Shown piece by piece: positions 8,976 to 49,489 of a stretch of 64,000 bases of DNA. Position 1 is the stretch's first letter. The number at the start of each line of letters is the position of its first letter. Below the pieces are notes generated by a model. That model ran no database searches. It was not told the DNA's origin and worked only from the letters and a program-made list of their open reading frames with translations. The stretch covers positions 1 through 64,000 of the forward strand of contig JAAFJL010000001.1 in NCBI GenBank assembly GCA_013298865.1, read 5' to 3'. Origin of the DNA: Cytophagales bacterium (GTDB lineage: Bacteria > Bacteroidota > Bacteroidia > Cytophagales > Spirosomataceae). Made by a program: the position numbers and the translations under genes.

Positions 8976-9018
8976 GGATGTATTGAGTTTAGATTTCTCA
9001 AATTTAACGTAAAAACTA

Positions 9019-9237
9019 ATGAAAACAATCGCATCTTTAAAAATAGGAGAACGGGGGGTCATTGTGGGATTCACGGACGAAGTTTTGTCATTGAAACTCC
9101 TCGAAATGGGTTGCCTGCCTGGAACGCAAGTTACGCTTACGCACATTGCCCCTTTTGGTGACCCAATTGCGATAAAAGTAACAGGCTATACGCTGTCTCT
9201 GAGAATTGAAGAAGCACAAACTATTCAGATTGTTTGA
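9019..9237 (+). CDS. feoA: FeoA-domain protein of ferrous iron transport
   Basis: 72 aa, one SH3-like FeoA domain: KIGERGVIVGFTDEVLSLKL, then EMGCLPGTQVTL and a closing strand pair SLRIEEAQTIQI. FeoA is a small cytoplasmic accessory protein needed for FeoB function. It is followed 129 bp later by feoB. The ATG at 9019 is 43 bp from the divergent receptor start, so part of its promoter probably overlaps the receptor's leader. Confidence 0.92.
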   Translation: MKTIASLKIGERGVIVGFTDEVLSLKLLEMGCLPGTQVTLTHIAPFGDPIAIKVTGYTLSLRIEEAQTIQIV

Positions 9238-9243
9238 TTTTTC

Positions 9244-9322
9244 TTGTGTGTATTAAGTATTATGTACTAAGTATTAAGTCTGGCACTCAGAATATAATTA
9301 GGACTAAATGCTTAACACACAA
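9244..9322. repeat. Imperfect palindrome between feoA and feoB
   Basis: TTGTGTGTATTAAGTATT at 9244-9261 pairs with the reverse complement of the segment around 9304-9322. The inner stretch contains AAGTATTAAGTC, which recurs in the hairpin upstream of nusB at 28817. Possible transcript processing or differential-expression element. Confidence 0.5.
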
Positions 9323-9366
9323 CCCACTATAAACCTACCTTAAAATTAAAAGAGATTAAAATATCA

Positions 9367-11487: not shown

Positions 11488-11526
11488 GAAAATTTCTATT
11501 GCCCCTAAAAACAACTCAAAATACCT

Positions 11527-12525
11527 ATGAAAAAATTACCTCTAATCGTCATATTTGTTCTTTTACGCTCTTTTTCTTCACTTTGCCAAGACACATATTT
11601 TAGTTACGCAAAGATGATTAATAAGGCGGAAATGGCTATTGTACATCAAAATTTCAAGCAAGCCCAAACTATTTATGATAGTGCCTTTGCCATCAAATCT
11701 AAGAAATTCTCTAAAGATTATTATAATGCTTTGGTATGTTCAATCATAATCAAAAATATAGCTAAATCTGAAGAATATATTAGCACTCTGATTGATAGAG
11801 GAGCTTTATTGGATAATATCAAAACGGATACTGTAATCAACAAAGTGATGCAAATGCCTTTTTGGGCAAATATTATAACTGATTATTCAGCCCGCCATAA
11901 AAAAGCTATCAAAAAATTTAATTACCCTCTTTTTAAAGAATTAGAATTTCTCCGTGCAAGAGACCAGCACATGAGGGGACGAGAGGGTTCGTATAAAGTT
12001 TGGGGAGATACCATAAAAAAATTAGATGTCATTAACTACAAGCGTTTAGATGAAATATTTGAAACTTATGGGTTTCCAGACGAAGAATTAATTGGTAATG
12101 AGAACCCACGTTATGATGATTTACCACATTATATAATTTTGAGACATTTACAAGGAGATAAAGAGTATGACCGTTCCGTAGTCATGAAAAAAGCAGTTAT
12201 AGAGGGGCGATTTTCTGCAAAATATTTTGCCTGGGTAATGGATTATGAGAATGATGAAAGGCACAATCCAGAGATTAATTTTGGAGTGACATTATATTAT
12301 GAGATAGATAATCAGCTATATCTTGATAAATTTTCGGATAAATTCAAATTGAAAGTTAATAGAAATAGAGAAAGTGTAGGACTTGAAAATGTAGATGATT
12401 ATCAGCAAAAAATATTGTACGAGCGAAAGGATAAACGGTTTAATTTCGGAAATCATTCTGGAATTTCAACAATGTCTTTTACAAATGAACAAGACAAAAA
12501 ATCATTTATCGAAGGCTTCAAATAG
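11527..12525 (+). CDS. Exported protein resembling DUF6624
   Basis: 332 aa with an N-terminal signal peptide (residues 1-20, ending near SSLCQ). Residues 25-120 are helical and may form TPR-like pairs. From about 135 the order 'RARDQHMRG', 'LDEIFETYGFPDEELIG' and a His-containing helix 'LPHYIILRHLQGD' resembles DUF6624 as I remember it; the match is from memory and not certain. It begins 39 bp after feoB but nothing links it to iron uptake. Function unknown. Confidence 0.6.
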   Translation: MKKLPLIVIFVLLRSFSSLCQDTYFSYAKMINKAEMAIVHQNFKQAQTIYDSAFAIKSKKFSKDYYNALVCSIIIKNIAKSEEYISTLIDRGALLDNIKTDTVINKVMQMPFWANIITDYSARHKKAIKKFNYPLFKELEFLRARDQHMRGREGSYKVWGDTIKKLDVINYKRLDEIFETYGFPDEELIGNENPRYDDLPHYIILRHLQGDKEYDRSVVMKKAVIEGRFSAKYFAWVMDYENDERHNPEINFGVTLYYEIDNQLYLDKFSDKFKLKVNRNRESVGLENVDDYQQKILYERKDKRFNFGNHSGISTMSFTNEQDKKSFIEGFK

Positions 12526-12555
12526 AACAAAAAAATAAAAAATCCCACACCCAAA

Positions 12556-13680
12556 ATGCTTTTACCAGAAGAAAAAAGACGCTATCAAAAACATCTTCTT
12601 CTGCCCCAAATTGGCGAAGAAGGGCAAACCAAGCTCAAAAATGCTCGGGTTTTGGTCGTTGGTGCTGGTGGTTTGGGCTGTCCTGTTTTGCTATATTTAT
12701 CGGCGGCAGGGGTTGGTAAAATTGGCGTGATTGATGCTGATGTTGTGGATATGACAAACCTCCAAAGACAAGTGCTTTACAGAGTTGAAGACATCGGAAA
12801 ATCAAAAGCAGTTATTGCCGTGAGTCGTCTCAAAAAACTGAACGATTCTATTGATTATGAGGTAATTAACCATAGATTTAAGCACGAAAATGCCGAAACT
12901 ATTCTTCAAAATTATGACATTGTTGTTGACTGCACCGACAATTTTCCTACTCGTTACGCCATCAATGATTTTTGTGTGAAGCTCCAAAAGCCCTTTGTTT
13001 ACGGGGCAATCCATCAGTTTGAAGGGCAAGTTTCTGTCTTTAATTTCAAGAACTCAGAAGGAATTTTAGGACCAACCTATCGCTGTCTTTTTCCAGAAGA
13101 ACCTGCCGATGGAGAAATCCCGAATTGTGCTGAAATTGGGGTTCTTGGAATCCTCCCAGGGACACTTGGAATGTACCAAGCCAACGAAGTAGTGAAGATG
13201 ATAACGGGCATCGGGACAGTCCTGAGTGGACAATTATTGATGGTAGATTTATTGGAAAATACTTCTCAGAAAATTCGTTTCAAACGAAAATCGAATGCTG
13301 AGACGCTTATTTTTCCAGAAAAGAAAATAGAAAAAACAGAAAGTGAATCATTCAATATTATGAAAACTATTTCGGTAAAAGAATTATCAGAACTTATTGA
13401 TAATCAGAAAGATATATTCCTTTTAGATGTAAGGAATTTGGGAGAATATGAAACTTGTAGGTTAGCAAATGCAGTATTAATTCCGATGAATAGTATCCCG
13501 ACAAGCGTTAAACATATTCCAAAAGACAAAAAAGTAATTGTGCATTGCCACCACGGAATGCGGTCGGCGAGTGTGATTCAATATTTAGAACAAAATCATG
13601 GTTTCGATAACCTCTACAACCTCACGGGAGGCATAGACGCTTGGGCAAGAGAAATTGATTTGGAAATGGTGAGATACTAA
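12556..13680 (+). CDS. ThiF/MoeB-type adenylyltransferase fused to rhodanese domain
   Basis: 374 aa. Residues 1-250 are a ThiF/MoeB E1-like domain with the nucleotide loop GAGGLGCPVL, the DMTNLQRQVLY segment and DCTDNFPTRYAIND. A linker leads to a C-terminal rhodanese domain whose catalytic Cys is in HCHHGMRSA. Such fusions adenylate the C-terminal glycine of a ThiS/MoaD-like protein and supply sulfur, for thiamine or molybdopterin synthesis. Only two cysteines (YRCLF, PNCAE) are near the usual zinc site. No ThiS/MoaD partner is in this window, so the pathway is undecided. Confidence 0.85.
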   Translation: MLLPEEKRRYQKHLLLPQIGEEGQTKLKNARVLVVGAGGLGCPVLLYLSAAGVGKIGVIDADVVDMTNLQRQVLYRVEDIGKSKAVIAVSRLKKLNDSIDYEVINHRFKHENAETILQNYDIVVDCTDNFPTRYAINDFCVKLQKPFVYGAIHQFEGQVSVFNFKNSEGILGPTYRCLFPEEPADGEIPNCAEIGVLGILPGTLGMYQANEVVKMITGIGTVLSGQLLMVDLLENTSQKIRFKRKSNAETLIFPEKKIEKTESESFNIMKTISVKELSELIDNQKDIFLLDVRNLGEYETCRLANAVLIPMNSIPTSVKHIPKDKKVIVHCHHGMRSASVIQYLEQNHGFDNLYNLTGGIDAWAREIDLEMVRY

Positions 13681-35805: not shown

Positions 35806-36966
35806 ATGAAAACCTCACTTCTATATTTAATCTTAGTATTCAGTCTTCAATCCTGCATTGAGAACTATGATATTTCGATTTCTACTAAAACACAAAAACT
35901 TATTGTTGAGGGCTTACTGACAGACAATTCCTATGAGAACGATACCATAAAGATTTATTATTCTCAGAATGAAGGTAGCCAAGTATTTCAAAATATAGAA
36001 ATTTCAGGTGTTACAGCTTCTATTGTTATAAAAGAAAAACAGCAAGAAATTTTACTCAGGAATGTTGGGAAAGGGAAATTTTCACTTCCAGAAAACACTT
36101 TTTTACCTGTCGGACAAAGCTATCAATTGAAATTTACCCTACCAGACGGTAACAACTACGAGTCTTCATTCATGCAAAAACAAAAGACTCCTCCGATTTT
36201 AAAGGTTTATGATAAATTCAATAGCAAAAGCCGTCAAAGTACAGACGGTAAAAAATTTCTTTCGGCAAATGAGGTTTTTATAGATTTCGATGACCCGTCC
36301 CAAGAAAAAAACTTTTATCTATGGCGTTATATCCATTACGAACGCACTTACAATTGTAAAACCTGCACGGACGGATTAGCCAATTTTAATACTCCAAAAA
36401 TATTAGCTGTACCAGAAGGAACTTGTGATGAACAACCGTTTAAATCTATTGGCTTACTAGTATCTGGTACTCAGAGCTATGGTTGTGAAACGATTTGTTT
36501 CCGAACTTTCAGAAATGATAATGCAGTAATTTTTTCTGATTTGTTATCTAATGGAAAAAAAATTACAGGAACATTACTGACTAAGATTCCTTATTACAAT
36601 AATCGAGAAGGTTGTTTAATTGGGATTCAACAATTAGTTGTCTCTCAATCTACTTATGAGTACATAAAGCTCCTAAAAAACTTAACTTCTGGTGGAACTT
36701 TAGTTGATACTCCACCCACAGCGATTGTTGGAAATATCAGAAACATCACTAATCCCAAAGAAAAAGTTATAGGTTTTTTTGAAGTTGGAGACGGGCAGAC
36801 TTTGAGCTATTGGGTCAATAGAAAAGGAGCAACTGGGGAAATTGAAAATTTAGCAGACCCAAATTTTGAGCCAAGAGGCTTATACCGTATGGAAGTACCT
36901 TTGTATAGATGTGGTCCTAACAAAGATAGAATTCCTTATAAACCAGAGGGTTGGCAAGATGAATAA
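35806..36966 (+). CDS. DUF4249 lipoprotein (first of tandem pair)
   Basis: 386 aa from ATG 35806; the GTG at 35791 only adds MSNLP. Lipobox ends at Cys17 (VFSLQSC), then the DUF4249 N-terminal pattern IENYDISISTKTQKLIVEGL. Conserved cysteines in YNCKTCTDG and SYGCETICFR suggest disulfides. It overlaps the next DUF4249 gene by 8 bp and is closely similar to it (KSRQSTDGKKFLSANEVF versus KSRQSPDGKKFFSANDVF), showing tandem duplication. It ends YRCGPNKDRIPYKPEGW, a useful guide to the lost end of its neighbour. Confidence 0.85.
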   Translation: MKTSLLYLILVFSLQSCIENYDISISTKTQKLIVEGLLTDNSYENDTIKIYYSQNEGSQVFQNIEISGVTASIVIKEKQQEILLRNVGKGKFSLPENTFLPVGQSYQLKFTLPDGNNYESSFMQKQKTPPILKVYDKFNSKSRQSTDGKKFLSANEVFIDFDDPSQEKNFYLWRYIHYERTYNCKTCTDGLANFNTPKILAVPEGTCDEQPFKSIGLLVSGTQSYGCETICFRTFRNDNAVIFSDLLSNGKKITGTLLTKIPYYNNREGCLIGIQQLVVSQSTYEYIKLLKNLTSGGTLVDTPPTAIVGNIRNITNPKEKVIGFFEVGDGQTLSYWVNRKGATGEIENLADPNFEPRGLYRMEVPLYRCGPNKDRIPYKPEGWQDE

Positions 36967-38107
36967 GAAATATTTGCTCTATGTATTTTTGCTTGTTGTT
37001 CTCCTTCAATCTTGCATTGAGGGTTATGACATCAACATTCCATCCAATACAAAAAGACTTGTCGTGGAAGGCTTGTTGACAGATAATGCTTTTGAGACAG
37101 ATACTATCAAAATCTATTATTCAGAAAATCAAGGAGGGTCTTTTTCTGAAAAAAAATATCCCGAAAATATCAAAGCCTTTATTGTTGTTCAAGAAACTAA
37201 GGAGGTTATTAGTTTAGTGTCTCCATCACTGGGTTCTTTTGTACTTCCAGAAGGGAAAAGCCTTCCCGTTAATAGAAGTTATCAATTACGTTTTACCTTA
37301 CCCAATGGTAATGAGTATGAATCTACTTTCTCAAAGAAACGGGCAAGTCCCGCTATTTTGAGAGTTTATGATAAATTTAATCTTAAAAGTCGCCAGAGTC
37401 CTGATGGTAAAAAGTTCTTTTCGGCAAACGATGTTTTTATAGATTTTGAAGATGCTCCTCAAGAAAAAAACTACTATTTATGGAGGTATGTCCACTACGA
37501 ACGGCTTTACTATTGCAAAAGTTGTTATAGTGGTTTAGCCGATTTTCTGAAAGTAGGCGAAGCAGGTATTTGTGACGAAGAACCTTTTGCTTCACGAGGA
37601 GTATATCTCAACGGAACAACTTATGTGTATGGTTGCAAGAGTACTTGTTTTAGGACATTCAGGAGTGACTATTTGAATACAAATTCGATATTTTCTGATA
37701 AATTATCCAATGGTACAACTATCAAAGGATTGAAGGTTGCTAATATTCCCTACTACATTAGATCCAATGGCTGTTTGATTGAAATTCAGCAAATGAATAT
37801 TTCTCCAGAATTGTATCAGTATTATACTATTCTAAAAAATATTTCAACCCAAACTGGAACATTAGTAGATGTACCACCCGCAGCAATAGTGGGCAATATC
37901 AAGAATATCAATAACCCCAATGATAAAGTTATTGGTTTCTTTGAGGTAGCTAATGCAAAATCTGTTCGTTATTGGATAGATAGAAATGAGGCTTCTGGAG
38001 AAGAAGATTATATTTTGGGTAGAAGAGTAGTGCTGGAACGTTCAGGTGAATTCAGGGATAATATACCTACACCAGTTGTGCTAGTTGATTTTTTGGTTAA
38101 AAACTAA
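36959..38107 (+). pseudogene. DUF4249 lipoprotein truncated by IS982 insertion (second of tandem pair)
   Basis: The current ORF is 382 aa from ATG 36959, with lipobox Cys19 (VVLLQSC). Its natural sequence stops at 38070; the last 12 codons or so (PVVLVDFLVKN) come from the transposon. Removing 38071-39113 joins codon AC|T and restores TYRCIQTIETTPMIPTEW-R-F to a stop at 39174, giving 390 aa and matching the YRC...W ending of the first copy. The truncated protein lacks this conserved end but could still be made. It was the middle gene of a DUF4249-DUF4249-receptor operon. Confidence 0.85.
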
Positions 38108-39113
38108 AAAAGGGTTATCTCTGAGGTTGCAACCAAAAGAGAAAACCCATGAACCAAGAGAAACAACTCTTAGCACTCAAAGATAATCCCAAAGATTTAG
38201 ATTTGGAAAATTTCTTGACTTTAACCTATTGTTTAGTCGATGAACTCTACCAAACCTTAAAATATTTAGTTGATCGTCCAGGTCCAAATCCTTTATTCTC
38301 AGAAAGTGAGGTCATCTGTCTAAATTTAGTGGGACAGATGGCGTTCGATTCTGAAAAAGCTTGGCACGGATTCGTCAAAAAAAATTACATTCATCTCTTT
38401 CCAAAACTCTTGGAAAGAAGTCGTTATCATCGTAGATGCAAAGATTTACAACAAATTACCGAGTTAATGAGGGGTAAATTATTGTATTTTATGAATACCC
38501 ATTTACAGGATTGGTTTGTCCTGGATAGTATGCCAGTCCCTGTGTGTGTTTATACCCGAGCATCTCGAAATTTACGTTTTGCTGCTGATTTTCAGGTAGA
38601 TAACAATACTTTATATGGTCATTGTGCTGCAAAAAAAGAAGATTACTACGGTTTTAAATTACATTTACTTGTAACTACACAGGGAGTCCCAGCTCATTAT
38701 GTGTTAGCTCCAAGTTCTCACCATGATGTTGTACTTGGTTCAGAAGTATTAGAATCTTATCGAAAATATACCCTAACCTTATTTGATAAGGGATATGTAG
38801 GACTTGAAAAAAGACTAATTCAACCCAATGATTACCAACTTATTATTCAAAAAAGGGATAATCAAACACCAAATACACCCATTGAAAAAGTATTTTTAGG
38901 TACTTTTAGGAAAACCATTGAAACAACAAATTCTCTATTAGCAGGTCAATTTAACCTGCAATTTTGTAGAGCTAAAAGTGCTTGGGGACTCACAAATAGA
39001 GTTATTGCTAAAATAACAGCACTCACTTTATCTATTTTTATCAATTATTGCCTTGATTTACCTCTATTGGAAATCAAAAACTTTATCTTTTAACTAGCAC
39101 AACTGGTACCTAC
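38065..39113 (+). mobile_element. Complete IS982-family insertion sequence with target duplication
   Basis: Element 38071-39107 (1037 bp) has perfect 16-bp inverted repeats: ACCAGTTGTGCTAGTT at 38071-38086 and its reverse complement at 39092-39107. ACCTAC is duplicated at 38065-38070 and 39108-39113. One transposase gene fills it. Intact ends and intact duplication indicate a recent insertion. It interrupts the 3' end of a DUF4249 gene. Confidence 0.95.
38149..39093 (+). CDS. IS982-family DDE transposase
   Basis: 314 aa, full length. Helical N-terminus, then RNase H-like core with Asp126 (FVLDSMPVPVC), Asp213 (LFDKGYVG) and Glu258 (KTIETTNSLL). The VLDSxPVPxC segment and the FxKDF-like segment replaced by YGFKLHLLVT are typical of IS982 members. 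It lies 63 bp inside the left repeat and is uninterrupted, so the copy may be active. Confidence 0.93.
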   Translation: MNQEKQLLALKDNPKDLDLENFLTLTYCLVDELYQTLKYLVDRPGPNPLFSESEVICLNLVGQMAFDSEKAWHGFVKKNYIHLFPKLLERSRYHRRCKDLQQITELMRGKLLYFMNTHLQDWFVLDSMPVPVCVYTRASRNLRFAADFQVDNNTLYGHCAAKKEDYYGFKLHLLVTTQGVPAHYVLAPSSHHDVVLGSEVLESYRKYTLTLFDKGYVGLEKRLIQPNDYQLIIQKRDNQTPNTPIEKVFLGTFRKTIETTNSLLAGQFNLQFCRAKSAWGLTNRVIAKITALTLSIFINYCLDLPLLEIKNFIF

Positions 39114-39195
39114 TTACCGATGTATTCAAACAATAGAGACGACCCCAATGATTCCTACTGAATGGCGATTTTGACTAACCTTAAAATAAAATTCT

Positions 39196-41604
39196 ATGAA
39201 AAAAATACTTCTGAGCATCCTTTATCTACTGCCTTTTGTTTCTATAAGTCTTTCGGCACAAGTAACTTCAAATAAATATGTAGTGGTTGATGGTATCATA
39301 AAAGATTCTTCTGATAATTCTCTTGTAGCAGGAGCAAATATCAAAGTTAACTTTGGCAAACTTGGAATCAGAACTAATGATAAAGGTCGTTTTTTGATAC
39401 AGTTACCTCTCGGAGCAAGTATTTCCATCACCCATTTGGGCTACCGTCCTTATCGTATCCGAGTGGATACCCAACGAGATACATTACAACTTAAAGTTAA
39501 ATTAATCAATATCGCTAATGAATTGGAGGAAGTGGTAGTTTCCACACAAGGTTCAGACAAAAATATATCTCGCCCACTAATTGGTGTAACTCAACTAAGT
39601 ATAAAAGCCATTCAAAAACTGCCAGCCGCTATGGGAGAAATTGATGTACTTCGGGGATTACAAATGTTGCCAGGAGTAACATCGGTAGGAGAAGCATCTA
39701 ATGGTATCAATATCCGAGGAGGAACAACAGACCAAAATCTGATTTTATTGGATGATACCCCAATTTTTAATCCTACTCATCTTTTTGGGTTATTTTCAAT
39801 TTTCCCACCTGATGCCATATCGAATATTGATTTGTATAAAGGTAGTGTCCCTGCACGTTTGGGAGGGCGAACTGCTTCTGTTTTGGATATACAAATGACA
39901 AATCCTTCTTTAGAAAAACTAAAATTAACAGGGGGAATCAGCCTGATTTCAAACCGTTTAACCCTTGAAACGCCAATCGTGAAAGAGAAGTTAAGTATCC
40001 TTCTCTCTGGTAGAGGGTCATTCAATGATTTTTTATTTAATCTTGGACCTGCCAGACTTCAAAATATTAGAGCCAACTTTTATGATTTTGCGACAAAGGT
40101 ATTTTACAGAGCGAATGCCAAAAATACGCTCACGCTATCGACTTATTTGAGCAAAGATTTTTTTCAGACAGATTTATTGGGTGGTATCGCAAATATTAAT
40201 GCAACTGCAACACAATTTAGTTATCAAACCAATAATGTTGCTTTGAAATGGTTTCATAGTTTTACTCCTAAAGTTAACTTACAAACAGTCGTTGTTTATA
40301 CAGACTATCAGCCTAAGACACTTTTACCAGAACTTAATTCAGATAATAAAGTAACGATTGAATCTGGTATTGAATACAAACAAATCAAATCCAGTTTGAT
40401 TTATGTACCAACCGAAAGCCATCGTCTTGAAGCAGGGATTTCCTTGGTAAGTTATGGTATAGAACCTGGCAAGTTAGTCCCAGGGACTTCTGTAAGTGTA
40501 AATCCAATCACTGTTCCGAAGGAGAATTCATTAGAAAGTGCTATTTATCTTGAAGATGAAATCATGATAAATAAGAAACTCACTGTTTCTATTGGATTGA
40601 GGTACTCAAATTATTGGGCTATCGGTCCCGCCAAACTGAGAAAATATGAACAGAATTCGCCCAAAACAGATTTTACTGTAACTGATTCTTTAACCGTAAA
40701 ATCAGGAGAAATTATTAAAAGTTATGGCGGTTTTGAACCAAGGTTTGCCCTCAAATATTCATTGGGAGCATTAAGTTCTTTCAAATTTGGCTATAACCTC
40801 ATGAGGCAATACATTCAAGTCATTTCAAATACTACCACACCACTGCCCACATCTCGCTGGAAGGCAAGCGATGATTACATTAAACCTCAGATTAGCCAAT
40901 TATTTTCTTTGGGATATTTTAAAAACTTCAAAGACAATATCTATGAAATTTCTCTCGAAGGATATTATCGTCATACAGAAAATGTGCTTGATTATAAACC
41001 TGGGGCTGATTTTTTGTTTCAACCATACCTCGAAACCCAAATTCTTGCCGGGAAATCAAAAGCCTATGGAGTGGAATTAATGATTGTAAAAAAGAAGGGC
41101 GAATTTACAGGATGGGTTAATTATACCTATTCAAGGTCATTGAATCAAATAAATGAAGGGTTATCTTTTACTGAGCAAATCAATAGTGGAGATTGGTATG
41201 CAACCAACTATGACCGACCGCATAGTTTTAATGGTAATTTCAATCTCAATCCGAATATTCATCATGAATTTAGTTTTACTTTAGCATATAGTACAGGCAG
41301 ACCTTTTTCTTTACCAGTTGGTTTTGTGAATTTTAAGAATGTACAATACCCACTTTACGAAGAAAGAAACAATGAACGAATCAAAGACTATACCCGTCTG
41401 GATTTCTCTTGGACAATCCGAAATCCGAGTATGCAAAAAAAACGCTGGGAAGGTAGCTGGACATTTACTCTATATAATTTATTGGGGCGTTCCAATGCCT
41501 ATTCAGTTTATTTTCGTTCAGAAAAAGCAGGCATTAAACCTTATCAACTAACTGTTTTTGGTTCTGTAATTCCCTCATTAACTTACAATTTCAAGTTTTT
41601 ATAG
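39196..41604 (+). CDS. TonB-dependent receptor with carboxypeptidase-like domain (downstream of IS982)
   Basis: 802 aa. Signal peptide ending SLSAQ, carboxypeptidase-like repeat (VDGIIKDSSDNSLVAGANIK), plug with PGVTSVGEASNGINIRGGT and barrel ending SLTYNFKF-L. It is 22 bp after the pre-insertion stop of the second DUF4249 gene (39174), so it was the last gene of that operon; the IS now lies between. Expression could be lost or driven from the IS end. Substrate unknown. Confidence 0.87.
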   Translation: MKKILLSILYLLPFVSISLSAQVTSNKYVVVDGIIKDSSDNSLVAGANIKVNFGKLGIRTNDKGRFLIQLPLGASISITHLGYRPYRIRVDTQRDTLQLKVKLINIANELEEVVVSTQGSDKNISRPLIGVTQLSIKAIQKLPAAMGEIDVLRGLQMLPGVTSVGEASNGINIRGGTTDQNLILLDDTPIFNPTHLFGLFSIFPPDAISNIDLYKGSVPARLGGRTASVLDIQMTNPSLEKLKLTGGISLISNRLTLETPIVKEKLSILLSGRGSFNDFLFNLGPARLQNIRANFYDFATKVFYRANAKNTLTLSTYLSKDFFQTDLLGGIANINATATQFSYQTNNVALKWFHSFTPKVNLQTVVVYTDYQPKTLLPELNSDNKVTIESGIEYKQIKSSLIYVPTESHRLEAGISLVSYGIEPGKLVPGTSVSVNPITVPKENSLESAIYLEDEIMINKKLTVSIGLRYSNYWAIGPAKLRKYEQNSPKTDFTVTDSLTVKSGEIIKSYGGFEPRFALKYSLGALSSFKFGYNLMRQYIQVISNTTTPLPTSRWKASDDYIKPQISQLFSLGYFKNFKDNIYEISLEGYYRHTENVLDYKPGADFLFQPYLETQILAGKSKAYGVELMIVKKKGEFTGWVNYTYSRSLNQINEGLSFTEQINSGDWYATNYDRPHSFNGNFNLNPNIHHEFSFTLAYSTGRPFSLPVGFVNFKNVQYPLYEERNNERIKDYTRLDFSWTIRNPSMQKKRWEGSWTFTLYNLLGRSNAYSVYFRSEKAGIKPYQLTVFGSVIPSLTYNFKFL

Positions 41605-41668: not shown

Positions 41669-41881
41669 TCAAGCAGAATACATTGCATCAATCCCGAACA
41701 AATCGTTGGGGGTTACTTGAAGAATCTCAGAAATCTTGGGAATAAAACGAGTACTTGGGTGGGTTTTTTCACTTTCCCAGTCGCTATACGTACTTTGTTT
41801 GACCCCAACAAGCGAGGAAATATCTTGTTGAGAAAGATTACGTAATTTACGGAGGCGGATGAGATTTGAACTAAAAATCAT
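41669..41881 (-). CDS. Small XRE-family regulator
   Basis: 70 aa, essentially one HTH: FSSNLIRLRKLRNLSQQDIS then SLVGVKQSTYSDWESEKTHP and a closing helix. Typical of SinR/Cro-like local repressors. It is divergent from the glycosyltransferase-like gene at 42144 and may control the peptide locus; that is inference. A second XRE gene lies at 44193. Confidence 0.85.
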   Translation of the reverse strand: MIFSSNLIRLRKLRNLSQQDISSLVGVKQSTYSDWESEKTHPSTRFIPKISEILQVTPNDLFGIDAMYSA

Positions 41882-42040
41882 AGCGTTAAAAGTTTTAAAA
41901 ATTGTTCAAAAAATGGATTTTGTTTAAATTTTTTTAAAAGCGATTAGTTGGCTATAAATACTCAACGTATTTTTAGAGGAAATGAGTATAATAATACAAT
42001 ATTAATTTTAATTGAAGAATTTTCAAAGCCAATTTTTCTC

Positions 42041-42081
42041 AAAATATCGGAAAAACGGATAATTTTTACCGAGTTTTTGGT
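42041..42081 (+). repeat. 40-bp direct repeat, copy A
   Basis: The 41-bp block around ATCGGAAAAACGGATAATTT and GAGTTTTTGG matches copy B at 49632-49671 in the same orientation, with one inserted T and one C/T change. The two copies bracket 7.6 kb of accessory genes. It is 62 bp before the start at 42144, so a promoter or regulatory role is also possible. Confidence 0.85.
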
Positions 42082-42143
42082 TTGGAATGCAAATATTAAT
42101 CAATATGTTTGTTTTTGTTGTTCAAATATTAGAGACATAGTCT

Positions 42144-43688
42144 ATGAAATTTATACACACATTCTGGACACCCACAAAATCTCTTGAAGGATTAAATGGT
42201 GGTTGGCTCAATGAAAAACTACATTTGACAAGTTGGGTTCTCAGTTTTCTACTGCTCAAAAAATATCATCCCTCAATTCCGATAAAATTAATGACTGATG
42301 ATTTTGGCAAAAAATTATTAGTTGAAGAATTATGTTTACCCTACGACGAGGTGGAAACTTCTCTTGAAACGTTAGAAACTGGTGTTTCCCCTAAAATATG
42401 GATTTATCAGAAATTATGGTCTTATGCCCAACAAAACGAGCCATTCATCAATGTTGATGGTGATTTCTTTTTGTTTGCTCCCATTCCTGATACGCATCTA
42501 AAATCTGAAATAGTTGCTCAAAATCTTGAAATTGGCTTTGAATTCTATCAGATTGCATTACAAAATCTACCTCTTATTTCTGATAAATTATCTCATCGTC
42601 TTCAAACCTTAATCTTACCCAATCAGGATTTGCCTGCTATGAATGCTGGCATTGTTGGCGGTCATGATTTCGTTTTTTTTCAGGAATATTTTCATCTCAT
42701 TTCTTCTGTTTTGAAAAATGAACCTTCTCTGAATGATGAACTCATCGACAGTAATTTTAATATGTTTTTTGAGCAGTATCTTATGTATTCATTTGTTCAA
42801 AATCAATCAAAGAAATGTCTATTTCTGACAGAACCTGTAAGTACCAATGTTTATGAAGGATTTGTTAATTTTCATGAAGTTCCTTTTCAGCGTAGCTTCT
42901 TGCATTTTTTGGGGAATTTCAAAAAAAATGTTTGGGCTTGTAACCAACTCTCGGATTATGTCTTGATACATTTTTCTGAATATACAGATAAAATCGAACG
43001 ACTTCTCAGAAAAAATAATTTGTCAAGAATTGTTACATTACAAAACCATTCTTTTTTAGAAAACAGTAAAAGCAATAATCCTTTTTATCGAACAGAATGG
43101 CTTCTGAAAACTCAGGGAATATTAGTGGAAAATGATATTAGTGGTAGTATCAAAAATAGTACTCTTTCAGAAAAAAAAAATACCGTTTTGGAGGATGCTT
43201 ACCAATTTGAAAAACAAAAAAATCATTTTCTGCAACAACTATTTTCTGACGGTGAAATCATTGAAAATCAGATGATTAGTTTTAAAAATAATGAAAAAAT
43301 ACTTTCTGAAAACGCCCAATTATTAGGAGTTAGAATCTCTTGGAATTCTTCAGCAAAAGTGATTGAAAGTTCTTGGAATTGGACTGAACAAAATTTCTTT
43401 CATGAAGCACCCAGAACGTATGAACAAAACTTTGAAGAACCCGAAGGACTATTTCAAGTATTTCTCTATTTGGACACTTTGTTTCTGAAAGTTTATGAGT
43501 ATCAGTCAGACGAAATAGCGATTGTGATGAAGGAAATTTTAGACGAGAAAGAGGTACTTTCAGTAGAAGAATTAGTACAAGAAGCCTATCAATATTTATC
43601 TCAATTAGGAGATTATGAGTTAGTGAAAGATTGTATTATTACAAGAATATCATTTTGGGTAAAAAGTGGATTCATTGATTTGGAATAA
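42144..43688 (+). CDS. Glycosyltransferase-like protein with possible RiPP-recognition C-terminus
   Basis: 514 aa, no signal or membrane segment. Residues 1-290 resemble DUF6734/GT-A-type proteins: MKFIHTFWTP, IPIKLMTDDFGK, and a DxD motif Asp105-Gly-Asp107 in PFINVDGDFFLFAPI, then MNAGIVGGHDF. The C-terminal 76 residues (439-514) have strands then helices with SDEIAIVMKEIL, VEELVQEAYQYL and FWVKSGFID, an order like PqqD/RRE winged helices. This is fold-pattern inference. It is convergent with a Cys-rich double-glycine peptide gene; modification of that peptide is plausible. DUF6734 naming is from memory. Confidence 0.6.
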   Translation: MKFIHTFWTPTKSLEGLNGGWLNEKLHLTSWVLSFLLLKKYHPSIPIKLMTDDFGKKLLVEELCLPYDEVETSLETLETGVSPKIWIYQKLWSYAQQNEPFINVDGDFFLFAPIPDTHLKSEIVAQNLEIGFEFYQIALQNLPLISDKLSHRLQTLILPNQDLPAMNAGIVGGHDFVFFQEYFHLISSVLKNEPSLNDELIDSNFNMFFEQYLMYSFVQNQSKKCLFLTEPVSTNVYEGFVNFHEVPFQRSFLHFLGNFKKNVWACNQLSDYVLIHFSEYTDKIERLLRKNNLSRIVTLQNHSFLENSKSNNPFYRTEWLLKTQGILVENDISGSIKNSTLSEKKNTVLEDAYQFEKQKNHFLQQLFSDGEIIENQMISFKNNEKILSENAQLLGVRISWNSSAKVIESSWNWTEQNFFHEAPRTYEQNFEEPEGLFQVFLYLDTLFLKVYEYQSDEIAIVMKEILDEKEVLSVEELVQEAYQYLSQLGDYELVKDCIITRISFWVKSGFIDLE

Positions 43689-43726
43689 TAAAATGGTTAT
43701 CTAAGAATTCAGACAACCATTTTATT
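43687..43726. terminator. 40-bp palindrome between convergent genes
   Basis: AATAAAATGGTT at 43687-43698 pairs with 43715-43726 and the centre is nearly symmetric too. It covers the stop at 43688 and precedes the convergent stop at 43734, so it can end both transcripts. Confidence 0.88.
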
Positions 43727-43733
43727 GGGCTGG

Positions 43734-43994
43734 TTATCCGCAATATGTTGGATTAGTAGAGCATTGATAAGCACCATTAAAATAACTTTGGCAACGAAAA
43801 GCAGAAGTAGCACAAGCTGCCGCACCTGATGATACATCCACAGAGCCAACAGGAACACCATTTTTACAGCAATAAACATGATATGGTGGACAAGAACTTA
43901 CATACCCATTACCACCTAATAATGATTTCTGAGAAGCACGAGATAGTTTCTCTGTTGAACTAAGATTCAACAAGGCAAATTTCTTATTTTTCAT
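43734..43994 (-). CDS. Cys-rich peptide precursor with double-glycine leader
   Basis: 86 aa from the ATG at 43994 (MKNKKFALLNLSSTEKLSRA); ATGs at 44015 and 44027 would add 7 or 11 residues. The leader ends at Gly27-Gly28 in LSRASQKSLLGG, as in Bacteroidota double-glycine natural-product precursors. The 58-residue tail has seven cysteines (SSCPPYHVYCC, AAACATSAFRC, YQC, TYCG) and is rich in Ser/Gly/Tyr. The sequence suggests an exported, disulfide-bonded or Cys-modified peptide. No C39 peptidase/ABC exporter is in the window. The convergent neighbour is glycosyltransferase-like. Confidence 0.72.
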   Translation of the reverse strand: MKNKKFALLNLSSTEKLSRASQKSLLGGNGYVSSCPPYHVYCCKNGVPVGSVDVSSGAAACATSAFRCQSYFNGAYQCSTNPTYCG

Positions 43995-44192
43995 TTGAAT
44001 AGATTTACTAAACATCCCATTGTCCATTAGGAAAGACCATTTCGTTTTAGTACCAACAAACTAACTATATTTTACCTCTACGTTGTATAAAAAAATGAGG
44101 TATAATTATAAGCTGAATATATAAACATATAAGTCGAAAATCATTTTATAGGATTAAACGCAGAATTTTAAATTTACTAAACGCTATCAGTT

Positions 44193-44591
44193 ATGACATT
44201 CGGAGCTAAACTTAAATATTACAGAGAAAGAAAAAACTTTAAGCAAGAGTACATTGCTCATAAATTAGGAATGACACAACCTAATTATTCCCTTATTGAA
44301 AACGATAAGCAACAACCTTCAATCAATCAACTCCAAAAAATTGCTCAGTTATTAGAAGTTAGTACGGACATATTGTTAAGTCCTACTTCGGTTATTGAAG
44401 AAAAAAGTGTACATGAATCTGGCATATCACAGCAGTTATTGCTACTGAAAGACGAGATTATTAAGACCAAACAGGAATTAATAGAAGCCAAAAACTTAGT
44501 AATTGAGAATCAGCAAAAGATTATTCAAGATTTAGAGCAGAAAATAATCCTATTTCAATCAAACTATTCCTCCCCTACTTATTCGGTTTAA
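44193..44591 (+). CDS. XRE regulator with C-terminal coiled coil
   Basis: 132 aa. N-terminal HTH (FGAKLKYYRERKNFKQEYIA, LGMTQPNYSLIENDKQQPSI) and a C-terminal coiled coil (about 80-122: LLLKDEIIKTKQELIEAKNL) that probably makes dimers. Divergent from the peptide gene with a 165-bp shared region, a likely control site. Its last 17 bp overlap the convergent propeller lipoprotein gene. Confidence 0.87.
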   Translation: MTFGAKLKYYRERKNFKQEYIAHKLGMTQPNYSLIENDKQQPSINQLQKIAQLLEVSTDILLSPTSVIEEKSVHESGISQQLLLLKDEIIKTKQELIEAKNLVIENQQKIIQDLEQKIILFQSNYSSPTYSV

Positions 44592-45873
44592 ATTCCCAGA
44601 AATCTTTTGCTGGATAGTATTTGGAGGTTTTGAGATTAGTCGGCACTGCCTGATACCCCATACCCAAAAATATTTTAGTATATTCTCCTGCTACTGCTAC
44701 GCCTACGTTTCCACTGCCTGGGTATTCGTAAGCCATTTGCCAAGAATCTGTTTGGTCATTGTATTTCCAGATGTCTTTATATCCTTCTCCTGTCTTGAGG
44801 TTACTGCCCAAGCCATAATAGCCCGTTCCTTCAAAAACAAAGAAAATACCAGACTCTCTGTCTGGAAAAGGAATATTTTTCAGGGCTTGCCATTCATCAG
44901 TGTTAATGTTGTATCTAAAAAACTCTTTGGTGTCCTCAGCCAAAACATAGCCATTGTTTTTGATGGTACAGGCTAATAATTTAAGCCCATTTCGTTTTGG
45001 ATAGGGTCGTAGTTTTACCCATCCTACTGGGTCAATCTTAGTTCGGCTAAAACTCCAGAGGTTAAATCCTTTTCCAACTTCTAATACAAAAAGGTCTGGA
45101 TAGTCGCCATCTGTGGCAAAGTGAACGGTTGGGGCATCTGCTCCTGGGTAATTATCAACTTCACTTCGGGGCAAAAAATCTGCAAACCTTTTATTGTATT
45201 CATAAGCAGGATTTTTTTCTGGAAAATAAAAATAACCCGCACCACCAAAGGAGCGATTTTCCGCAGGAGCTCGCAAATATATTGGATTAATAAGTAATTT
45301 ACTCTCACGGTCGCCAACCCATTCTTTTTGACCTGAACCATAGTAAAACCCTTTTGAAATAGCTTCTTCATTATTGGGCAATCTTGTTCTGACATTAATA
45401 AAGTAAAAAACTGTATTCCCCAAAGAATAGCTACTTAAACTTGCCTCTGGCAAAGGTGTACCCGTATAAGGTACATCGGGCAGGCGTTCCCAATTGGGAG
45501 AATTAATGACTACTTGTTCGTTACTGTACTCAATTTTTTCATTATTTTTTGAATACAATCGTACATAATATTTTTCACCGCTTTTTACTTCTAATGCTAA
45601 AGTTCGAGTAATATCTTGGAGAGAACCATCTGATTGATAGGCAATTACCTTTGAACTTTCAATCGTAGGGTTTGATTTTGTTCCATAAACAAAACCTACT
45701 TCTGAACCGCTTGAGGCAAGTACTGTTCCTGTAATTTTGACATCTTTCTGAACGGCATCATACAAAACGGACTTTAGTTCAAGCCGAGTTTCTGGAATAG
45801 CTTCTTCTTGTTTTTTACAGAATGTCAATAAAAAAACAAAGCAGAGATATATGATTTTTCTTGAAATAGACAT
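44575..45873 (-). CDS. Kelch/galactose-oxidase-like propeller lipoprotein
   Basis: 432 aa. Lipobox Cys19 (FLLTFC), then a FnIII/IPT-like domain at about 30-125 (GSEVGFVYGTKSNP; GEKYYVRLYSKNNEK) and a beta-propeller with kelch-like blades (WERLPDVPYTGTPLPEA, NTDEWQALKNIPFPDRES, NDQTDSWQMAYEYPGSGNV). It is the third gene after a TonB receptor and DUF4249 gene (21-bp gap), so it probably helps their uptake task at the cell surface. The stop region overlaps the convergent XRE gene by 17 bp. Confidence 0.82.
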   Translation of the reverse strand: MSISRKIIYLCFVFLLTFCKKQEEAIPETRLELKSVLYDAVQKDVKITGTVLASSGSEVGFVYGTKSNPTIESSKVIAYQSDGSLQDITRTLALEVKSGEKYYVRLYSKNNEKIEYSNEQVVINSPNWERLPDVPYTGTPLPEASLSSYSLGNTVFYFINVRTRLPNNEEAISKGFYYGSGQKEWVGDRESKLLINPIYLRAPAENRSFGGAGYFYFPEKNPAYEYNKRFADFLPRSEVDNYPGADAPTVHFATDGDYPDLFVLEVGKGFNLWSFSRTKIDPVGWVKLRPYPKRNGLKLLACTIKNNGYVLAEDTKEFFRYNINTDEWQALKNIPFPDRESGIFFVFEGTGYYGLGSNLKTGEGYKDIWKYNDQTDSWQMAYEYPGSGNVGVAVAGEYTKIFLGMGYQAVPTNLKTSKYYPAKDFWEFKPNK

Positions 45874-45894
45874 TTTAGTTATTGATTTAAAGTT

Positions 45895-46947
45895 TTACCA
45901 ATCCGAAGGTCTAAACGGAATTGAATTAGGGAAAAAACTGACGCAATCACCTTCGCCCTGAAATGGTAAAGTAATCGTACTGATTTTTGAAAGATACACT
46001 TCGTCTGTTAATGGTACTACCAACCTTTTTCTGATAACACCTGCCACCGAAAAATAACCCAATGTTAGCTTGGTTGGGTCTTTTCTGTCGTAAACATTTC
46101 CTTCAATAGTAGAGGGAATAGGGTCAAAAATTGTCCCAGTTCGGTTGTATTGGTCATTTAGCCTTTGGTAATACACATAAGCCTCCCTGCTAATAGCGTA
46201 TTGGCTAACCTCTATCAAATGTGAACCTCGGTTATAAATTGGAGCATACCAAATGCTCTTTTTCTGGATTTGGTTGCCATCAATATCTCTATCAGATTCA
46301 ACATCAAAGGCTACTTTTCTGAAATACTGCCAGCAAAAATCTTTAGTAATTTGCCCAGACCGAAAATCAAAGACTCCCGTCGAACGCCTGCGTGTCCAGA
46401 AATATACTTCCCAACGGTAAAAATTTTCTACGTTTTTGGGGTCTTTCAAATCTATGTAAATCAAATGTCCATAAGATTGTTCAAACTTGGCGGTCTCTGT
46501 ATATTCTACATAAAGATTATCAATCTGTGGTACTTTTTGTAGTTTCTCGGCTTTTGAAAGATACTCTTCGCCTTCGGGCGTTTTTATAGACAATACATAG
46601 ACATGACCCACTTTTCCAGCAAAATCTAACTCTCTTGTACGATAAACGCCTGCTTCTTCATATACCTGTGGCAGTGTATAAATCTTATTGTCTGTACTAT
46701 CTATAATTTGCACCAAAGCACCATTAACTGCCTGACTCTGAAAGGTTTGATTGGCATAAGCGAAGGTACTGGTGTTGGTCAGCCGAATGGTGCAGGGAGA
46801 ATTTTCATCCGAAAGAACACCTTCTACAACCAATTTTGGTTTTTCAATTCTAATGGGCAAATCAACAGATTCGATACAAGAAGAAAGCCCTATTACTGAT
46901 AGCAACAGAGGATAAAAATAAATAAATATGTGAGGTATTTTTTTCAT
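45895..46947 (-). CDS. DUF4249 lipoprotein of the third receptor locus
   Basis: 350 aa, lipobox Cys24 (VIGLSSC), DUF4249 start VDLPIRIEKPKLVVEGVLSD and C-terminal FFPNSIPFRPSDW. Similar in order to the proteins at 5277, 35806 and 36959 but the most divergent of the four. It is between the receptor (47123) and the propeller gene, with palindromic element 1 in the upstream gap. Confidence 0.85.
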   Translation of the reverse strand: MKKIPHIFIYFYPLLLSVIGLSSCIESVDLPIRIEKPKLVVEGVLSDENSPCTIRLTNTSTFAYANQTFQSQAVNGALVQIIDSTDNKIYTLPQVYEEAGVYRTRELDFAGKVGHVYVLSIKTPEGEEYLSKAEKLQKVPQIDNLYVEYTETAKFEQSYGHLIYIDLKDPKNVENFYRWEVYFWTRRRSTGVFDFRSGQITKDFCWQYFRKVAFDVESDRDIDGNQIQKKSIWYAPIYNRGSHLIEVSQYAISREAYVYYQRLNDQYNRTGTIFDPIPSTIEGNVYDRKDPTKLTLGYFSVAGVIRKRLVVPLTDEVYLSKISTITLPFQGEGDCVSFFPNSIPFRPSDW

Positions 46948-46948
46948 A

Positions 46949-47109
46949 AGTAACGGTAAAATAATAACTTGTAAAATTTTAGGTTGGTTATTTTAGTGTC
47001 AGTTTTATGTACTTTTGAAGCGAATAGCATCGCTATTTAATGAAAAAGTAGATAGAACTGGCGGTAAAAGAGTCGCTTAAAAATTATAAGCTATTGTTTT
47101 ACCGTTACT
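46949..47109. repeat. Palindromic element family A, copy 1 (about 161 bp)
   Basis: Arms from 46949 (AGTAACGGTAAAATAATA) and up to 47109 pair over about 35 bp with few mismatches. The centre AATAGCATCGCT at 47023-47034 followed by TTTAATGAAAAAG matches copy 2 at 57206 with two changes. The element fills the receptor-DUF4249 gap. No ORF. Confidence 0.82.
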
Positions 47110-47122
47110 AAAAGGTCTATTC

Positions 47123-49489
47123 CTAAAAATTGAAATTCCATGTTAATGATGGAATGATACTACCAAAAACTGTGAGCTGATACGACTGAGTTGTTTTGTT
47201 GAATTTGGTAAAATAAATTGAGTACGGGTTTTGTCTTCCATAGAAATTATACATCGAAAACACCCAAGTACCATATCGTTTTTGTTCTTTTTTCTTTCGG
47301 GTTTCCCAAGAAAAAGACATATCCAAACGATGGTAATCTGGTATTCTGTCTTGATTTCTGAGTGAATAATTGATGATTGGAGTGCTTTTGTAGGCGTAAG
47401 TACCATCTGGGTAAATCGCAGGGCGACCAGTACTGTACGTGAAATTGGCAGAGTAATTCCAGCCCCGTCCTAAGTTATAAGTAGTTGAAATATTGAGGGT
47501 ATGGGGTTTGTCGAAAGTAGATGGAAACCATGCCCCTTGATTGACATTTTCTATCGGAAAAGCCCCCTGAGTAGCCACCAACGAACGTGCATAAGAATAA
47601 TTGGCTTGTCCTGTTAGTTTTCCTTTGTTCTTTTTTACGCTAAATTCTATCCCATAAGCCTTACCGACAGCAGTAATCAAATCGGTTTCTATGAAAGGAT
47701 TTAGCAATAAAGTTGCTCCATTTTTGTATTCGATAATTGAGCTAATATCCTTGTAATATGCTTCAACGGATGTCTCAAAGGTATTATCATTAAAATTTCT
47801 GAATAAACCCACAGCGTATTGGTCGCCTACTTGTGGCGGTATGTAGGTGTCGCTTAGTTTCCAATAATCTACTGGCGAAATGGCTGTGGTATTAGAAATC
47901 AGATGGAGGTATTGTCGCATTCGGTTATAGCTCATTTTCAGAGACATCAATTCAGAAAGCCCAACCCGCATAGAAATTCGTGGTTCAAGACCACTATAAG
48001 TTTGAATTTTCTCTCCGTCCTGATACACTTTTTGTCCTGCAATACTCCCCGTACTTTTGGGTAAATTTGGCAAATACTGAGCTACTGTTTTTGCCCCATA
48101 ATTACTAAACTGACTGTACCGCAAACCCGCCTGTAAAGTAATCGTTGGCGAAATCACCCACTCTTCGCTGACATAAGCTGCTATTTCGGTGGCTTGTTCT
48201 GGCTCTAATTTTTTGGGATTGATATTGGATTTGTCGTTGGATGGATTTCGTTCTCCAAGAACATTATTGTAGCGAATAATATTACCCCCTAATTCTAATT
48301 TATGGGCTTCGTTTGGACTAAAAAGTAAGCCCGTTTTTACTTCTTGATGTTTGATGGAAGATTGATACAAAAATCCCAAAAATTCCTTCAATCCCTCCAT
48401 CTCGAACCGATAATTACTGTAAACCAATGCGGTATTGAGCGAGAGTTTCTTGCTAAGGATTACCCCCCACTGCAAACTTGCCATTTCGGATTTCCAAGCA
48501 TAAGAAGTGTCTTCGGGGAATTTGAAATCATCATAACCCCGATAATACGAAACTGCAAGGTTATGTTTTGTATTGGGTTTGAAATTTAATTTGAGGTTGG
48601 CATCATAAAAACTTCCTCTACTATTTTCAAAACGCTCGGGAAATTGCTTGATAATCCAATTTGGATAAGCAATTCTGGTTGCTGCCAGAAAAGTTAATTT
48701 GTCAGAAATTGGTCCTTCAACTAATAATTTTGTACTAATATTCCCAACTCCGCCAGAGACATTTATTCTTTCGGTGTTTCCCGTTTTAGTACTCATTTTT
48801 ACCAAAGAAGACAGCCTACCGCCATACTGAGCAGGAATTCCGCCTTTTAGTAACGTTACATCTTGCAAAATATCGGGGTTGACATTGGCAAAAAAACCAA
48901 GTAAATGCGAAGAATTGAAAACGGGGGCTTCGTCGAGCAAGATAAGATTTTGGTCAACCCGTCCGCCACGTACATTGAAACCACCAGCACCTTCGCCAAC
49001 AGTACTAACCCCAGGCTGAAGCAACAATGCTTTGATAATATCTACTTCCCCAAAGACAACGGGGATTTTTTTAATGTTTTGAAGATTAAGCCGTACGGTA
49101 CTCATTTCAATACTTTTTACATTGGCATCAGCTTTTTTGCCTTTCACTTCTACTTCATCCAAATCTTTGATTTCTTCTGTCAATTCTACATCATAAACGG
49201 TGTCATCAGTAATATCTAACTCTCGTGTTTTGGAATAATACCCCACCGCAGAGACTTTGACGGTGACTCGACCGAAAGGAATTTTGAGAGAATATGCTCC
49301 ATTTTGATCTGTAACCGCCCCTTTTTTTGAACCCAATATCGAAATGTTAGCCCCAACAATCGGCTTTTGGGTATTCTTGTCCGTGATAATTCCAGAAAGC
49401 ACAACATTTGCCTGACTTTCAAAATTTACCATAAAAATGGCAATGAAAAAGAGGGGAAAGAGAAAAGATTTTAGAGTGTTGTTGACCAT
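47123..49489 (-). CDS. TonB-dependent receptor of the third locus
   Basis: 788 aa. Signal peptide ending SQANV, carboxypeptidase-like domain (LSGIITDKNTQKPIVGANIS), plug with PGVSTVGEGAGGFNVRGGR and barrel ending in the terminal Phe of SLTWNFNF. It begins the receptor-DUF4249-propeller operon on the minus strand. About as similar to the receptor at 39196 as to that at 6519 by eye (shared YSTGRP, RMRQY). Ligand unknown. Confidence 0.87.
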   Translation of the reverse strand: MVNNTLKSFLFPLFFIAIFMVNFESQANVVLSGIITDKNTQKPIVGANISILGSKKGAVTDQNGAYSLKIPFGRVTVKVSAVGYYSKTRELDITDDTVYDVELTEEIKDLDEVEVKGKKADANVKSIEMSTVRLNLQNIKKIPVVFGEVDIIKALLLQPGVSTVGEGAGGFNVRGGRVDQNLILLDEAPVFNSSHLLGFFANVNPDILQDVTLLKGGIPAQYGGRLSSLVKMSTKTGNTERINVSGGVGNISTKLLVEGPISDKLTFLAATRIAYPNWIIKQFPERFENSRGSFYDANLKLNFKPNTKHNLAVSYYRGYDDFKFPEDTSYAWKSEMASLQWGVILSKKLSLNTALVYSNYRFEMEGLKEFLGFLYQSSIKHQEVKTGLLFSPNEAHKLELGGNIIRYNNVLGERNPSNDKSNINPKKLEPEQATEIAAYVSEEWVISPTITLQAGLRYSQFSNYGAKTVAQYLPNLPKSTGSIAGQKVYQDGEKIQTYSGLEPRISMRVGLSELMSLKMSYNRMRQYLHLISNTTAISPVDYWKLSDTYIPPQVGDQYAVGLFRNFNDNTFETSVEAYYKDISSIIEYKNGATLLLNPFIETDLITAVGKAYGIEFSVKKNKGKLTGQANYSYARSLVATQGAFPIENVNQGAWFPSTFDKPHTLNISTTYNLGRGWNYSANFTYSTGRPAIYPDGTYAYKSTPIINYSLRNQDRIPDYHRLDMSFSWETRKKKEQKRYGTWVFSMYNFYGRQNPYSIYFTKFNKTTQSYQLTVFGSIIPSLTWNFNF

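Follow-up and report, generated by a model that had tools for sequence, protein, structure and literature searches.

The closest described systems to the locus studied here are the glycocins, such as sublancin (SunS), glycocin F, thermoglycocin (ThgS) and pallidocin (PMC12457901, PMC6405829). RRE-glycosyltransferase fusions are flagged as possible new RiPP architectures in the RRE-Finder paper (PMC7470986), and a fusion of this kind with a GT2 enzyme (PF00535) appears in a 2025 structure-based RRE survey (PMC12710340). Mining of Bacteroidales for RiPPs has listed clusters with glycosyltransferases (PMC10352776). A literature search, with most subscription journals outside its reach, returned no published account of DUF6734, the family of the enzyme described below. 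The window, i.e. the whole stretch of 64,000 nucleotides that was analysed (contig JAAFJL010000001.1 of a Cytophagales bacterium), contains a gene for a Cys-rich double-glycine peptide next to a DUF6734 gene. Our preferred reading, to which we give a probability of about three in four, is that this pair constitutes a minimal RiPP locus in which an RRE-guided glycosyltransferase modifies the core of a disulfide-rich RiPP.

The peptide and DUF6734 genes are convergent, with 46 bp between their stop codons, and are bracketed by two XRE-type regulators (Table 1). Both flanking regulators had been recognized in the first-pass annotation, and HTH_3 matches (E 1e-14 and 6e-14) agree with it. They may have roles in the peptide/DUF6734 locus. 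The strong hairpin located between the convergent stop codons is possibly a shared bidirectional terminator for the peptide and enzyme genes; a consensus scan for a GC-rich terminator between them gave none. No exporter, protease or oxidoreductase was seen at the locus beside the pair, and no LanB, LanC or rSAM gene was found beside it within the stretch covered, nor a dehydratase next to it. The lack of an exporter by the pair had been noted before; C39 proteins occur elsewhere in the genome. On either side of the pair lies a TonB-receptor/DUF4249 block (36866-41604 and 44575-49489), the two blocks being convergent, and a DDE transposase is encoded at 38149-39093. Another peptide/enzyme pair of the same genome (C288) also adjoins a DUF4249 gene and a Kelch-like gene. 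The DUF4249 and TonB-receptor neighbours were considered as partners and rejected: this adjacency is weak evidence because the genome carries 20 DUF4249 copies.

Table 1. Coordinates of the features of the peptide/DUF6734 locus in the window.
Feature	Position	Strand	Remarks
XRE-type HTH regulator, 70 aa	41669..41881	-	HTH_3 E 1.1e-14
DUF6734 protein, 514 aa, GT-A (GT8/glycogenin-like) domain and C-terminal RRE-like module (both predicted)	42144..43688	+	PF20508
Glycosyltransferase domain (predicted), residues 1-290	42144..43013	+	K90, D105/D107 (DxD), N167-A-G169, H254-x2-G257-x2-K260
C-terminal module, residues 296-514	43029..43685	+	RRE/PqqD-like in last ~75 residues (about 440-514)
Hairpin between convergent stop codons	43686..43735	.	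z -4.3 (+), z -7.8 (-)
Precursor peptide ORF, 97 aa	43734..44027	-	likely start at inner ATG 43994, giving 86 aa
XRE-type HTH regulator, 132 aa, divergent from peptide gene	44193..44591	+	HTH_3 E 5.7e-14

Read from the inner ATG, the peptide consists of a 28-residue leader, MKNKKFALLNLSSTEKLSRASQKSLLGG, ending in LLGG, and a 58-residue core with exactly seven Cys, just as first described from the letters alone. As in glycocins, the leader carries a GG-type (C39) cleavage site and the core contains Cys. The window peptide matched none of the leader models TIGR04149, NF038153 and NF038158, and no strong homologue was found in a peptide search over 222 genomes. Two of its weak matches, in G866 and G894 (E 0.008 and 0.05), are at 230 and 743 bp from a DUF6734 gene; we calculate that chance would produce fewer than 0.01 coincidences of this kind. 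With seven Cys in the window peptide, one would stay unpaired, and an S-linked sugar would also be possible. The Cys count is even in the core of 37 of the 47 DUF6734-linked peptides, so S-glycosylation is not implied; mostly even counts fit disulfides plus an O-linked sugar in most peptide families. A conserved 4-Cys peptide family, with a core ending like IGCxPAYCxAxGHGxFLYC, adjoins DUF6734 genes in seven loci (L126, L129, L131, L132, L133, L008 and L029). A second putative precursor class has a hydrophobic leader ending in NEAQA[ST]G, followed by a short Cys-rich tail (L030:12581-12904, with NEVQATG; L150:3988-4272; L158:3483-3695; L159:9109-9324; L160:606-803). These peptides, which we take to resemble NVEALA-type peptides, lie near DUF6734 and RND/HlyD genes.

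The convergent 514-aa protein with a DGD motif (D105-G-D107) is present as first reported. Residues 1-286 match PF20508 (DUF6734) with an E-value of 1.4e-75 in a Pfam scan. This is its sole family match, and neither a SunS-type NCBIfam nor a PF00535 match was found in the enzyme. An AlphaFold2 model of residues 1-290, based on an alignment of the window and related loci only, has a pLDDT mostly of 80-97. In a Foldseek comparison with the PDB its top matches are almost throughout GT-A type glycosyltransferases, with glycogenin (GT8) first (E 6e-7), which backs the earlier description of this domain as glycosyltransferase-like and predicts a GT-A fold with a DxD motif. All 62 relatives examined have K90, F101, D105, D107, G169, G172 and H254 unchanged, and the motif residues listed in Table 1 are kept in 61-62 of the 62, except G257 (47/62). 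They fit features typical of GT8, namely a conserved Lys, a metal site of DxD type and the motifs NxG and HxxGxxK. When DUF6734 was aligned with Bacteroidota GT8 proteins (PF01501) using hhalign, the NxG and HxxGxxK motifs were in register, with a non-significant probability. Since this overall probability is only 1.8%, GT8 membership is not established by sequence, and it is the predicted fold alone that points to a GT8 relationship. Search of PDB sequences with the A1 profile (hmmsearch) gave zero matches.

GT-like folds can be re-purposed, and DUF6734 could be a GT-A-fold RiPP enzyme with another chemistry, or a chaperone-like partner no longer transferring sugar. The LanB/LanC, radical SAM and redox enzymes also held in DUF6734 loci would be in line with this, and because of them the DUF6734 glycosyltransferase may be one of several modifiers. 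However, the DxD, K90 and H254 are invariant in the 62 homologues, which is what one would expect if the enzyme depends on a metal and uses a nucleotide-sugar, and we regard this explanation as unlikely, if the most serious of those that compete with a peptide glycosyltransferase.

The likeness of the C-terminal module to PqqD/RRE domains, also proposed at first reading, holds at the profile level. Pfam and NCBIfam scans gave no match at all for residues 296-514 and no RRE match for single C-terminal modules. The window module belongs to a module family (leave-one-out match with E 7e-25), and the profile of this family aligned by hhalign with a PqqD profile (PF05402 family, 39 sequences from Bacteroidota genomes) over 57 of 70 positions, with a score of 35-40 and a probability of 92-94%. 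An earlier comparison with three PqqD sequences only had been uninformative (5-9%) and was repeated with the 39. As controls, 40 column shuffles and unrelated neighbour families did not exceed scores of 13.3 and 17.2, respectively, with a probability of at most 1.4%, and reversed profiles also stayed far below the module score. The sole other strong match to PqqD was a cluster of LanC-plus-module proteins (score 81), which is expected because this cluster carries the same module. Three DUF6734 subclades each align to the same PqqD region (48-69%). With the five-member clade of the window alone the figure is 6.5%, so that the window's link to PqqD rests on membership in the wider module family. 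An AlphaFold2 prediction of the C-terminal module from three sequences suggests two strands followed by three helices, at low confidence (pLDDT 49). Among PDB sequences, the best hmmsearch match of the C-terminal profile is a GrpE coiled coil (E 0.012) and none is convincing; the PqqD chaperone of a lasso peptide (9x90_B) comes third with E 0.88.

The collected loci hold 1471 other ORFs, and a module profile built from 48 two-domain relatives picked out five proteins among them, all in loci with the short, glycosyltransferase-only form of DUF6734 (about 295-310 aa). Four of these trans modules (E 1e-14, 7e-10, 3e-7 and 2e-4) are carried by proteins that are LanC-like or fall into one sequence cluster with these, one being confirmed by a LANC_like Pfam match, and the fifth is on a lone 201-aa ORF (E 7e-5) located 3 bp from a glycosyltransferase-only DUF6734 gene. 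The five trans modules alone give 1.8% with PqqD. A region of ~140 residues precedes the PqqD-like part in both the fused and the trans forms. Since it is found on LanC-like proteins and alone, the module moves independently of the glycosyltransferase. We conclude that it is RRE-like, judging by its profile and its fused-or-separate behaviour and not by structure. The proteins combining a LanC-like part with the module lie beside glycosyltransferase-only DUF6734 genes (L031:7112-8959, L134:3916-5958, L138:6889-8910 and L148:3997-5841) and are a possible leader-guided LanC architecture. In L134, an NRPS protein (condensation, AMP-binding and PP-binding; 6883-12879) is encoded directly beside the DUF6734 and LanC-plus-module genes, and its cluster also occurs in L138 and L151.

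The distribution of DUF6734 is scattered: 11 of 296 genomes taken from throughout the phylum have it, as do 33 of 222 in the family of the window and 21 of 400 in another family. For linkage we considered 59 loci with 62 strong DUF6734 members, and scored small ORFs with at least two core Cys at no more than 3 kb. A GG-leader or NEAQA-type Cys-rich peptide is encoded near 37 of the 62 DUF6734 genes, versus 4 of 104 control anchors taken nearly all from the same genomes; the Fisher p-value of 5e-16 is optimistic because the loci are related. With a stricter leader motif the counts are 29/62 and 0/104. It is the looser pattern that lifted the controls to four, and one control ORF resembles a real GG peptide. 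All three DUF6734 genes of the window's own genome, on three contigs, have their own GG/Cys peptide, at 46, 88 and 95 bp. Given these proportions, the pairing of peptide and enzyme goes beyond chance. Counted over loci, a precursor or RiPP gene is present in 49 of the 59. The recurrent neighbour clusters are C39-ABC exporters (17 loci), C39-VKOR-thioredoxin fusions (15), HlyD (10), LanB (9), radical SAM (8) and LanC (7). Several DUF6734-linked precursors match the TIGR04149 and NF038153/NF038158 leader models, two of them above the curated cut-off. The first-pass annotation had named beforehand three outcomes that would count against it, namely a C-terminal fold unlike an RRE, an N-terminal domain other than GT-A, and genes that never co-occur; co-occurrence across genomes is frequent, the N-terminal fold is predicted to be GT-A, and the RRE likeness appears by profile, with the AlphaFold2 model at pLDDT 49. 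None of the three came out against it.

DUF6625 proteins recur in DUF6734 clusters of six loci (L039:15113-16375, L137, L163, L164, L165 and L170) and may act as another enzyme in the same pathway. Divergent DUF6734-like proteins devoid of the C-terminal module are found in L042-L045 beside eCIS core domain proteins (Pfam-confirmed for L042). Viral contigs from IMG/VR (L047-L072) encode further short proteins with a DxD and a likeness to DUF6734, about 270-420 aa long.

The linkage bears on whether DUF6734 could instead be an ordinary cell-surface or polysaccharide glycosyltransferase, its proximity to an unmodified class II-like bacteriocin being incidental. Envelope loci commonly hold GT-A enzymes, and the divergent relatives in eCIS-core and phage-like loci are without such peptides. 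The excess of nearby peptides over the controls, the C39, LanB/LanC and radical SAM genes found linked to DUF6734, and an RRE-like module in common with LanC-like proteins nevertheless make this quite improbable. That the main modification is lanthipeptide-like or due to a radical SAM enzyme, with DUF6734 only tailoring such products, finds some backing in the LanB, radical SAM and LanC-like genes of several loci and in leaders matching lanthipeptide leader models, but can be given very little credit as many loci, including that of the window, have DUF6734 and a GG peptide with no LanB, LanC, rSAM or, beside the window pair, dehydratase in the stretch covered.

Under the preferred reading of an RRE-guided glycosyltransferase, the C-terminal module of the DUF6734 protein would recognize the GG leader of the peptide, and the GT8-like GT-A domain would transfer a sugar from a nucleotide-sugar onto the core. 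One or more of the 58 core residues (Ser, Thr, Tyr or Cys) would be glycosylated, and the remaining Cys would form disulfides. A C39 exporter encoded elsewhere would then cleave the leader after GG and export the product. Such export in trans is possible since C39 proteins are encoded elsewhere in the genome: after a second DUF6734 gene (C270) come a C39-VKOR-thioredoxin fusion and another GG peptide, and four further C39-domain proteins have open frames of 739-771 aa, which is exporter size. A single-sequence search of the genome contigs had retrieved one DUF6734 relative only. A point against this reading is that in the window the DUF6734 gene is convergent, not co-directional, with its peptide gene. 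The product would probably be an antagonistic or signalling peptide.

Beyond the window, we lean towards DUF6734 being a new GT8-like, RRE-guided family of peptide glycosyltransferases, defining a class of disulfide-rich RiPPs that are glycosylated and occur throughout Bacteroidota, with a leader-binding module that moves between glycosyltransferase, LanC-like and stand-alone proteins. Recurring across many Bacteroidota genomes, the pairing suggests a class of bacterial peptides that bear sugars and have been little studied. For a Pfam family whose function is unknown it provides a functional hypothesis, and dozens of pairs of peptide and enzyme are at hand. If true, Bacteroidota too would glycosylate peptides by means of a dedicated enzyme, here another kind of glycosyltransferase and one that has an explicit domain for leader binding, and the RRE-fused enzyme could serve as a portable tool with which sugars are attached to leader-tagged peptides.

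What the locus has in common with glycocins is the general pathway logic: a Cys-rich core, a leader of the kind that a C39 peptidase cuts off, usually at GG, a gene for a dedicated glycosyltransferase (here a predicted one) and, presumably, disulfides. It differs by an enzyme with no SunS-type match, the glycogenin fold neighbour, the RRE-like module and the Bacteroidota hosts. The C39 exporter and thiol-disulfide enzymes of glycocin clusters were not seen beside the window pair; they occur at other places in its genome and at many of the sister loci. The glycocin-like pathway first suggested thus stands for the way the locus would work and not for family membership: with no SunS-type match, and with a local cluster devoid of exporter and oxidoreductases, it is not filed as a glycocin. 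Nor is it a class I lanthipeptide cluster with LanB and LanC beside the pair. Glycogenin, the best structural match of the N-terminal domain, glycosylates a protein (itself). It has no RRE, and DUF6734 bears no significant sequence likeness to Bacteroidota GT8 proteins. The Bacteroidota GG-leader RiPPs are related through the leader models that fit several DUF6734-linked precursors, whereas the window peptide fits none and its modifying enzyme would be DUF6734. The module resembles the PqqD/RRE family in profile, but is too divergent for single-sequence detection and is preceded by the further ~140-residue region. The RRE-glycosyltransferase fusions of PMC7470986 and PMC12710340 likewise join a glycosyltransferase to an RRE-type domain. 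The accessible text of the 2025 survey names GT2 PF00535, and no mention of DUF6734 was found in it. As far as these texts go, such fusions are already known and DUF6734 is new as the fused enzyme, to which are added here its tie to precursors, the swapping of its module with LanC-like proteins and the breadth of the family.
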